From positions 1 through 64,000 of the IMG/VR virus record IMGVR_UViG_3300017991_000008: DNA of 64,000 bases. One strand, 5' to 3'. Each line of letters begins with the position of its first letter. Positions within the stretch are counted from its first letter, which is position 1. Origin of the DNA: a virus. Positions 19,025 through 48,219 of this stretch are shown here, in pieces. The notes beneath the pieces were generated by a model. It saw only the letters and a list, made by a program, of their open reading frames with translations, had not been told where the DNA came from and did no database searches. Position numbers and translations under genes: made by a program.

Positions 19025-19648
19025 ATGATTACGAATGTCTTGAAACGTAAAGAAGGTGACTTGTGTGCCAACCTTCAAACGTACGCCCATAAAATAAAAT
19101 TCACGGGCGATGCCACCTACCCAGACGGTGGAACCCCTGGATTCGTTGCAACCCTGCAGGCCGCTGTTGGGTTGAAGATCACCCCCATTGAGGTTATCGC
19201 CATCAACTGCGGCGCCTACAAGACCCAGGTAACCGAAACGCCAGCCATTGTCCAGACCGACGTGGAGACATGGCCAGTGGCAGACCAGGATGGCAACACC
19301 ATTCTGTACAAGCTCAACGGAGCAGACGAGGCGACGTTGACACTGTCCGGCGCTCACACTACGAGAGCACAGTTGGCAGCATCCCTAGAGGCCATTTCCG
19401 GGATCCACGCCTACGATGACGGAGCACAGGTGACTTTCAAGACCGATGAGGTCGGCGAAGGGGCCTCTCTTGAAATCACAGGTGGAACCGCGTTAGCCGC
19501 CTACGGGCTTGTCGCGGGCAACAACATCGGAAGCGATGAGCTGTTGCTCAGGGTCAACGACATCGCAGATGGTGCAGATGCCGGGGTTGGAGCCGCCTCA
19601 ACTGACCTTAGTGGCACAGTTTTCGAAGTCCTGGTAATCTCGAACTAG
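19025..19648 (+). CDS. capsid-adjacent virion protein with the shared beta module
   Basis: 207 residues, AGGAGG 8 bases before ATG 19025. Residues 1-75 are not recognised. Residues 82-165 are one copy of the module found in five virion genes here: WPVADQDGNTILYKLN, HTTRAQLAASLEAI, VTFKTD, LEITGG. The opening is nearly identical to the copy in the tail sheath. The gene lies directly after the capsid gene and is probably a head surface or decoration protein. Structured RNA follows. Confidence 0.65.
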   Translation: MITNVLKRKEGDLCANLQTYAHKIKFTGDATYPDGGTPGFVATLQAAVGLKITPIEVIAINCGAYKTQVTETPAIVQTDVETWPVADQDGNTILYKLNGADEATLTLSGAHTTRAQLAASLEAISGIHAYDDGAQVTFKTDEVGEGASLEITGGTALAAYGLVAGNNIGSDELLLRVNDIADGADAGVGAASTDLSGTVFEVLVISN

Positions 19649-19667
19649 AGTGCCGGGAAAGGCTTGG

Positions 19668-19737
19668 GAGAGGGGCCGGGGGTAAAACAGACCATTTGCC
19701 CTGTGCCCGGCCCCTTCTCTCATTATCACAGGGCAAA
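19668..19737 (+). promoter_or_regulatory. interleaved inverted repeats able to form an H-type pseudoknot
   Basis: Arm A GAGAGGGGCCGGG (19668-19680) pairs with CCCGGCCCCTTCTC (19706-19719, one bulge). Arm B TTTGCCCTGTG (19695-19705) pairs perfectly with CACAGGGCAAA (19727-19737). The order is A-B-A'-B', B abuts A' with no gap, and the loops are 14 and 7 bases. The two stems either coexist as a pseudoknot or exclude each other as a switch. No T run follows either. It lies in the 112-base gap between two head genes. Confidence 0.6.
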
Positions 19738-19760
19738 ACGACGGGGCAAGGAGTCGAACC

Positions 19761-45901: not shown

Positions 45902-46077
45902 TGGCCGATAGCACAGCAGGCAAAGCCAGTAATTTAACAATGGGCCAGAGCAAGGGTGCAACGAAAGATCCTTTGCCCTCCAGAACATCTGGTTTAAACA
46001 AGGGGCTTGCAGGACCCAGGGGAGAAGGTGGAGAGATAATCAGGGATTTTCCGTTGCTAAGTAGAGACGCACCATAG
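45901..46077 (+). CDS. very small tail-region protein, 58 aa
   Basis: ATG 45901 lies in a TAATG junction; the frame is also open from 45838. The product is Ser/Gly/Lys-rich and low in hydrophobic residues, so probably disordered. Coding status rests on the stop-start overlap and codon pattern. Confidence 0.5.
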   Translation: MADSTAGKASNLTMGQSKGATKDPLPSRTSGLNKGLAGPRGEGGEIIRDFPLLSRDAP

Positions 46078-46089
46078 TAGGAATGATGA

Positions 46090-48219
46090 ATGACTAGCGT
46101 TCTAGTACCATATGCCCAGCTTGACTCCATTTTGGAGGAGTTCACCGATGCCACTTTGTGGCTAGTGGTGATGAATCCGGGTATCGATGAAGAGAACGTC
46201 GAGAAGGACGAAAGCTTGGTCCTTCGTGCTGTTCTTCCCAAAGAGGATCCGGCCACTGCCGATCTGTCAACACTCTCGATTCTGATACAGATAAACCGCG
46301 GTTCTGGTTGGGAAACCATCTACGAAGATGGAACTTTTGCCGCTCCATGGGATGTGTCTAGCACCGTGACCGACAGCGGGGGGGGGTCTTTGTATACCTA
46401 CCGTGAGGTTGCTTGCATACCCGGTGAAGATGTTTTTCCAGACAGCTCCACTGTCCAAGTTCGAATAGCAGCGACCAGGGAGCTTCCGACAGAGGGCTGG
46501 GCAGAGTTTTCATGGGGGACCGGTGGGTGGGGAACTGGTAACCTGGGAGGCGTAGCAGAAGCATCCGAATCGTTCTCTTTTACCATTTTGGACGAGACGG
46601 CACCGCAGGCGCTCTTAGTAGAAGCCATAGGGCGCCAAACTATCCGGGTGACCTATTCTGAGTCCATGGCTCCATTAACGGAAGACGGTGAAGCCAGTGT
46701 GGTTTCAACGGTACCTGCTGCTTCATGGCCAGCCTCGAGTTCGTTACCCTGGGAATTTCAGGTGGTGGTCAACGGAGTTCAGCAGACAGTGTCCATTGAC
46801 GACACCATGGTTTCCGGTACCGACGTGCTCCCCGAAGAGGTGTCATTTTCCCTATCTGCCTTGCTAGAAGGAGTAACAGCCGAGGATGACGGGAGCCTGG
46901 TGACTTTGTCTACGTCCCTGAGCGGGGACAATGCCACCCTGCAGGTGGTCGGAGGAAATGGTGCTACCATACTCGGCTTCCCCGATTTGGAGGCTGTGGG
47001 GGCGTACAAAGGGGTTCTGGACGCAGCCAACTATAGTGTCACCCGTCATAACGTCTACCCCAATCCGGCTGTAAATTTAGAAATAGAATCGGCAGCATTC
47101 GAAGAAGATTCGACCTCGGTAGTTGAATTGACTACCCAATGGCCTATGACTCATAATGCGCCGTATAAACTTCGCATAGATGGAGATATTACCGACACAT
47201 CCGGGAACGTGATAGATTCAACCACCCTGGTTCATGATTTTATTGGATTCAAACCGGACTGGCCGGATAGGCGCGACACCGAGATAACACTTCCGCAGGT
47301 TATATGGGATCACGACGAAGATCAGGTCATGAGAGCAATCGTCAACATCTGGCAGGAATACTTGGACCAGACAGTAGACGACTATGATGAACTCTGGAAT
47401 TACTTTTCTGCTGATGACATACCGGCAGAGCTCTTGGAGTTGGCCCTGGCGGATATGGGCAACCCGTTTGACTGGGCGGAGTTGGATCTTGATGAATCTG
47501 AAAAAAGGAAACTGCTGGATCTGTTGCCGGAAATTTACGCTTCCAAGGGGCTCGGACCCGGTATAGAATCGGTCGTCTACTTGCTACTGACCGTACCTGT
47601 ACAGGTGGAACCACATATTGAAAACGGTTGGAGACTTGGATTGGACACACTGGGAGACAGTGATCCGGCCATGGTACGCTGTGCCAACCCGGGACCGTAC
47701 GACTTGACGGGTGGGGGTTCGTTGACCGTCGAAGTAAATGAGGGGGATGAGCAGACCATAGTCTTAGACGAGGACGATTTTGACGATCCTTCCGTGGCTA
47801 CCACGTTGGAGGTCGTAGCAATCATCGACGCGCAATTGGATGGTGGCGGGGCGGAACCGTCGGATGATGGTTCGGGCCCTAAAATGATCATCTATTCTGA
47901 ATACTACGGACCAGGGGGAGCAATACAGGTAACAGGGGGCACCGCAAACACCGAGTTCGGATTCGATACCAGTTTACATTCGAGTTCAGGAGGTTGTCGG
48001 CTGGCCCCAGGGGATCCCAAATCCCTCCGAACATTTGATCTAGTTTATGGCGATGTGATACCGTCAGAAGAGCAGATCATATTGATTCGGAGGATCGCCA
48101 AATATATGAAAGCGGCAAGTGAATTTGTCGGGACAATCAGACCCACGAAGGTCTACGAGGCAAGTGACCGCTGGAAACTGGGAGGCTCTACTCTCGGCGT
48201 AGACACTGTGATCGGCTAG
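46090..48219 (+). CDS. tail protein I-like (P2 gpI) fused to Ig-like domains and beta modules
   Basis: 709 residues. The first 170 residues are Ig-like strands (STLSILIQINRGSGWETIYE, VQVRIAATRELPTEGW). A Big/fibronectin-like unit follows (VEAIGRQTIRVTYSESM). Module copies lie at about 219-300 (LPWEFQVVVNGVQQTVSI ... LGFPDLEAVG) and 536-627 (GGSLTVEVNEGDEQTIVLD, VVAIIDAQLDGG, IQVTGGTAN). Residues 405-520 carry the I-like core: QEYLDQTVDDYDELWNYF, SEKRKLLDLLPEIYASKGLG, GIESVVYLLLTVPVQVEP. gpI anchors the fibre to the baseplate; the fibre gene follows. Confidence 0.7.
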   Translation: MTSVLVPYAQLDSILEEFTDATLWLVVMNPGIDEENVEKDESLVLRAVLPKEDPATADLSTLSILIQINRGSGWETIYEDGTFAAPWDVSSTVTDSGGGSLYTYREVACIPGEDVFPDSSTVQVRIAATRELPTEGWAEFSWGTGGWGTGNLGGVAEASESFSFTILDETAPQALLVEAIGRQTIRVTYSESMAPLTEDGEASVVSTVPAASWPASSSLPWEFQVVVNGVQQTVSIDDTMVSGTDVLPEEVSFSLSALLEGVTAEDDGSLVTLSTSLSGDNATLQVVGGNGATILGFPDLEAVGAYKGVLDAANYSVTRHNVYPNPAVNLEIESAAFEEDSTSVVELTTQWPMTHNAPYKLRIDGDITDTSGNVIDSTTLVHDFIGFKPDWPDRRDTEITLPQVIWDHDEDQVMRAIVNIWQEYLDQTVDDYDELWNYFSADDIPAELLELALADMGNPFDWAELDLDESEKRKLLDLLPEIYASKGLGPGIESVVYLLLTVPVQVEPHIENGWRLGLDTLGDSDPAMVRCANPGPYDLTGGGSLTVEVNEGDEQTIVLDEDDFDDPSVATTLEVVAIIDAQLDGGGAEPSDDGSGPKMIIYSEYYGPGGAIQVTGGTANTEFGFDTSLHSSSGGCRLAPGDPKSLRTFDLVYGDVIPSEEQIILIRRIAKYMKAASEFVGTIRPTKVYEASDRWKLGGSTLGVDTVIG

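Follow-up and report, generated by a model that had tools for sequence, protein, structure and literature searches.

A module of ~90 residues is present in seven main copies in five virion genes (19025, 25636, 28078, 39878 and 46090) of one phage, and in two of these genes copies of the module lie inside other copies of it, an arrangement that goes beyond the earlier, sequence-only reading of this DNA. That we deal with one module, inserted into its carrier proteins, is very likely. Its overall explanation, in which we have good but lesser confidence, is that it forms a phage branch of the small domain seen in FliD (D3), the flagellar cap protein, and in flagellins, which Vibrio phage XM1 has as the insertion domain of its sheath, and that it serves as an exposed accessory add-on; the surface position and the binding that an exposed contact role would imply are plausible rather than probable.

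The DNA analyzed here (the window, 64,000 nucleotides) is part of the 95,380-base virus record IMGVR_UViG_3300017991_000008, positions 1 to 64,000. Judged from its set of head and tail genes, the window reads as a contractile-tailed phage:

8194: terminase
10133: portal
16185-16943: head maturation protease
18011: major capsid protein (phrog_1623)
19025-19648, + strand: protein of 207 aa, directly downstream of the major capsid gene 18011, with one module
24620: head-tail adaptor
25636-26433, + strand: connector-region protein, with one module following its first strand
26442: neck/tail completion protein
28078-30267, + strand: tail sheath, 729 aa, with a nested module pair at residues ~112-315
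31831: tape measure
38373: baseplate wedge J-like protein
39878-42412, + strand: baseplate-region protein of 844 aa, carrying two complete copies plus a split outer one
46090-48219, + strand: TIGR02242-type tail protein of 709 aa, with a module on each side of the TIGR02242 region

The product of 19025 is a probable head decoration protein. Gene 25636 is flanked by the adaptor and the neck/tail completion genes; 39878 (homologs L062, L063 and L064) sits between the J-like and the TIGR02242 genes. The TIGR02242 match in 46090 (E 2.7e-10, residues 401-519) is under the curated cut-off. The sheath was identified by phrog_15814 (E 5e-81) and by the Streptomyces contractile injection system (CIS) sheath 8bky (E 7e-43), and its model matched known sheath structures with Z up to 15.5. 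The family phrog_15814, whose function is listed as unknown, is thus the sheath family of 28078; its profile also matches the module in 25636, 39878 and 46090, therefore its matches can mislead. The C-terminal half of the 16185-16943 product matches a DNA methyltransferase PHROG profile as well as head maturation protease profiles; the protease assignment agrees with its position ahead of the capsid genes.

The sequence-only reading had proposed main copies of one module in these five genes, and all seven lie where it had placed them, as judged by BLASTP, by leave-one-gene-out HMMs (profiles trained without the tested gene) and, for 39878b, by homologs. The copies and parts of copies, with leave-one-gene-out E-values where given, are as follows:

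19268-19534, + strand: module in 19025 (E 3e-14)
25726-26013, + strand: module in 25636, long-loop type (E 2e-9)
28444-28542, + strand: sheath outer copy, N-terminal half, first two strands (profile positions 2-34)
28555-28824, + strand: sheath inner complete copy, within the outer copy (E 7e-19)
28819-29028, + strand: sheath outer copy, C-terminal half, helix and three strands
40316-40363, + strand: 39878 split outer copy, first strand (aligns to the unbroken L062 copy)
40391-40660, + strand: 39878 copy a, within the outer copy (E 6e-9)
40658-40846, + strand: 39878 split outer copy, rest (joined flanks align to L062)
40868-41150, + strand: 39878 copy b, the weakest of the seven (E 8.5e-3 with 39878a also withheld)
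46723-47004, + strand: 46090 copy a (E 6e-8)
47692-47991, + strand: 46090 copy b (E 8e-13)

Within the window, BLASTP alone linked the sheath with 19025 (E 2e-10) and with 39878a (8e-10), and 25636 with 46090b (9e-9). When profiles were built from the copies, a check that the sequence-only reading had itself suggested, six of the seven copies, held out, scored 28-63 bits, with E-values of 6e-8 or better; 200 shuffles per held-out protein gave at most 9 bits. The profile also located same-position copies in relatives left out of its building. One could ask whether the shared pattern is only convergence, or low complexity, of beta sequence rich in Gly, Thr and Ala, with no homology behind it; the copies do have this composition, and their G+C content is above that of the rest of each gene. 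Against scores so far above those of the shuffles, and against the copies found in relatives outside the training set, this explanation has a vanishingly small probability, and for the six strong copies we regard it as refuted. Copy b of 39878 is backed by a match to the L013 homolog of 19025 (E 6.8e-7), and it recurs at the equivalent place in two homologs of 39878. The excess of G+C (1 to 6 points over the rest of the own gene, in all seven copies) may only reflect Gly/Ala-rich composition.

No other ORF of the window matched the module HMMs better than E 0.1, and the remaining 31 kb of the record gave no further copies. A weak copy that had been suggested at 41693-42001 received no support in profile searches and was dropped.

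AlphaFold2 models were made for 19025 and for the sheath, from shallow alignments (6 and 12 sequences, respectively) and with the sheath core poorly modeled; the copies in 25636, 39878 and 46090 are assigned to the same module by sequence. The module of 19025 was modeled with pLDDT ~90. Its best match in PDB was the XM1 sheath (7kh1, residues 97-216; Z 11.6, rmsd 2.2 Å over 102 residues), followed by FliD (Z 8-10), the Vibrio cholerae flagellin 9n8g (Z 9.7) and the E217 sheath (Z 8.7), with weaker matches to Milano, Mu, Sf14 and T7-type nozzle proteins. The inner sheath copy matched FliD with Z 11.0. At the sequence level, a profile of 34 module copies detected the XM1 sheath 7kh1 at E 5e-5. 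A comparison of the module with FliD D3 by hhalign, with a FliD profile built from E. coli K-12 and 11 other genomes, gave a probability of 88% and a score of 39.4, compared with at most 17.4 for reversed profiles and at most 19.9 for 30 column-shuffled ones. This profile comparison supports remote homology of the module and FliD D3. The likeness to FliD and flagellin IN domains that had been noticed by eye in the sequence motifs is thus borne out by structure and profile comparisons alike.

Searched at E up to 10, the Pfam family Flagellin_IN (PF07196) gave no match to any of the seven copies, therefore the module was not assigned to it; nor was Flagellin_IN found in the two genomes to which L010 and L012 belong. 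Pfam Ig-like/Big families gave no Ig family match to the seven copies. Two sub-threshold matches were seen in the whole proteins, Big_5 at residues 332-376 of 46090, outside the module copies, and Ig-like at residues 89-182 of the sheath, overlapping the insertion.

The sheath insertion is where one copy is seen inside another. In the sheaths closest to that of the window (from iterated searches over related contigs) a segment covering profile positions 2-29 precedes a complete copy, and one covering positions 25-97 follows it. When the flanks of the inner copy of the window sheath were joined, they scored 47.3 bits over profile positions 3-96; the C-terminal half alone scored 22.7 bits, and 30 controls at most 26.7. 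Joining of the flanks yielded a full-length outer copy in eight of nine sheaths, L010 being the exception. The AlphaFold2 model of the insertion (pLDDT near 90) shows the same order, in which two strands come before a complete copy and a helix plus three strands after it. A weak sheath copy that had been suggested at 28840-29028 is therefore real, but instead of being a separate copy it makes up the C-terminal half of the outer copy, which is split. The more distant sheaths L021, L023 and L024 have two complete copies in tandem and no nesting pattern.

In 39878 the outer copy is interrupted by copy a and, further on, by copy b, while the homolog L062 (phage G151) has one unbroken copy at this place and lacks copies a and b; the joined flanks of the window gene are 40% identical to the unbroken copy over 87 residues. 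The last strand of the outer region can be assigned either to copy b or to the outer copy. As to direction, these genomes alone are compatible both with insertion into a copy and with precise loss from it.

One could also suppose that the nested sheath insertion was taken as a single unit from the D2-D3 head of FliD, with no self-insertion. D3 of FliD likewise interrupts a loop, that of D2 (both are dispensable for a functional filament; PMC8533109), and Foldseek aligned the sheath model with FliD D2-D3 over >200 columns. However, the phage module profile recognizes each half of the outer copy, the sequence match to FliD is limited to D3, XM1 has one domain only, and 39878 is nested likewise with an unbroken relative, L062. 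We find such an origin quite improbable and hold to nesting of the module in itself.

Sheaths without the insertion, a class that the sequence-only reading had asked for, do exist. The L020 sheath aligns to residues 21-111 and 316-727 of 28078 with few residues between, and 8bky aligns to 14-104 and 321-724; neither has the module. It is also missing from the 120-aa L018 homolog of 19025 and, in the case of 25636, from the homologs in L018, L020 and L015. Both L018 and L015 carry the nested sheath, thus the positions vary independently. At the other end, G151, with a sheath 46% identical to ours, bears the module in its homologs of every one of the five genes; on the L010 contig, too, five genes contain copies, three of which were checked as homologs of window genes, and the L061 homolog of 46090 carries both modules. 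None of the 46090 homologs examined was module-free. No module copies were found in G158, G160, G162, G164 and G165, several of which are fragments.

A direct scan for relatives of 39878 and 46090 gave none, but whole-record searches did find relatives. Searching 50,697 phage records with the full sheath and a consensus-like module gave no match; 46090b matched Myxococcus phage Mx1 (E 3e-3). In Mx1 (L009, OR576727.2, 8561-17559) we observed up to four module matches in a baseplate J-like protein, and one strong module copy (E 5e-24 and 8e-27) in a gene annotated as kelch repeat protein. Four module matches (E 2e-11 to 4e-8) were also seen in a 1248-aa open frame, G204:C4:95831-97738, in a genome from the phylum of G001.

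Modules at the same position in different phages are 42-54% identical on average, those at different positions in one phage 27-37%. Same-position copies being more alike than same-phage copies, most placements are old, and on these sequences most insertions seem to predate the split of these phages. In the module tree, with weak support overall, copies of 19025 and 25636 mostly cluster by position, the L008 sheath copy is the neighbor of 39878a (95/90), and the two copies of 46090 are near the 25636 group. Recent gene conversion between copies was considered and dropped: identity within the genome is barely above that between genomes, with a single 27-nt match (89%) between the 19025 and the sheath copies.

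The sequence-only reading had described the module as a mobile unit. That it is insertable stands, given its clean absence in relatives of the sheath, 19025 and 25636; recent mobility gains no support from placements that are mostly old. A stronger version, in which the module is mobile at the protein level, with a specific route of recombination that carries it repeatedly from one structural gene to another and into loops of its own, forming a particle-wide coat, we regard as improbable.

Since the sheath, 19025 and 25636 exist without the module in relatives, the module is an add-on outside the assembly core; it seems to be a single domain spread over the particle in this capacity. It occurs as an insert in loops of head, connector, sheath and baseplate proteins, and inside its own copies, having presumably reached these sites by duplication and recombination between virion genes. 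If it lies on the outside of the particle, it would be present there as many times as the virion proteins that carry it, and it could provide a large number of weak contacts, for which the cell surface is the most likely partner; it would then act as a display unit. Its absence in relatives, its loop position and the lateral placement reported for domains of this type in other sheaths favor an exposed accessory role, and we rank adhesion above bracing, and bracing above a neutral passenger.

Bracing would mean that modules contact each other or their neighbors and stabilize head, neck and tail without host binding. D3 of one FliD subunit stacks onto D2 of the next (PMC12221982), in the crassvirus an auxiliary capsid protein contains the FliD-like domain (PMC10172136), and copies in several parts of the particle could touch one another; yet relatives whose sheath, 19025 or 25636 homolog is free of the module apparently assemble. 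Bracing is rather unlikely, if worth serious attention. Less likely still is that the domain was duplicated into insert-accepting loops and is tolerated there with no selected role. Insertion of the module even into its own copies, and its varying presence among positions and phages, would be expected of such a passenger; however, same-position copies keep 42-54% identity across divergent phages, and occupancy of five genes is repeated in G151.

These observations tie a sequence family to a domain known piecemeal from cryo-EM (XM1 sheath, nozzles, crassvirus capsid, FliD), and present a clear case of one domain across a single particle, with self-nesting and natural empty sites. The module profile can be used in annotation, where many domains of this type are still listed as unknown; the phage also offers a testable system for why phages put one domain on many virion proteins.

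The closest known system is the insertion domain of the XM1 sheath protein gp6 (PDB 7kh1; PMC10457771). The predicted fold of the module agrees best with it, and next with FliD D3 and flagellins; it is detected by the module profile, is inserted in the N-terminal part of the sheath (residues 97-216 in XM1, ~112-315 in the window, compared by numbering) and resembles FliD D3, as its authors pointed out in proposing acquisition from the host (PMC10457771). As with this type of insertion, that of the window sheath interrupts a sheath fold that exists without the module in L020 and the Streptomyces CIS. XM1 was described with a single sheath domain, whereas the window phage has it nested in its sheath, with copies in four other virion proteins as well. 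With FliD D3 and the flagellin outer domain the module shares fold (Z 8-11), the strand-helix-strand pattern and the hhalign match; those are flagellar proteins, while the module belongs to virion proteins and is not matched by Flagellin_IN.

A 2025 paper lists sheaths, nozzles and auxiliary capsid proteins, along with FliD and flagellin, as carriers of this domain, and a lateral sheath domain of this type reportedly has no direct part in contraction (PMC12846349); the crassvirus atlas has a FliD-like domain in an auxiliary capsid protein (PMC10172136). Phages Adele and phiTE, podovirus nozzles and crassvirus carry this domain type in several kinds of virion protein, but reportedly in one protein per phage and recognized by structure only, whereas the window phage has paralogues recognizable by sequence in five genes. 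Ig-like phage domains, in the account of Fraser et al. 2006 as relayed by PMC9230969, are likewise accessory, exchangeable beta domains on head and tail proteins; they are of another fold and family, and the window module recurs within one particle and inside itself. In the literature searched, mostly open-access papers, we found no description of many copies per virion or of self-nesting. The fold itself was already known from sheaths, nozzles, capsid proteins and FliD. New here are the seven recognizable copies distributed over five virion genes of one phage, the nesting of copies and the natural empty sites.
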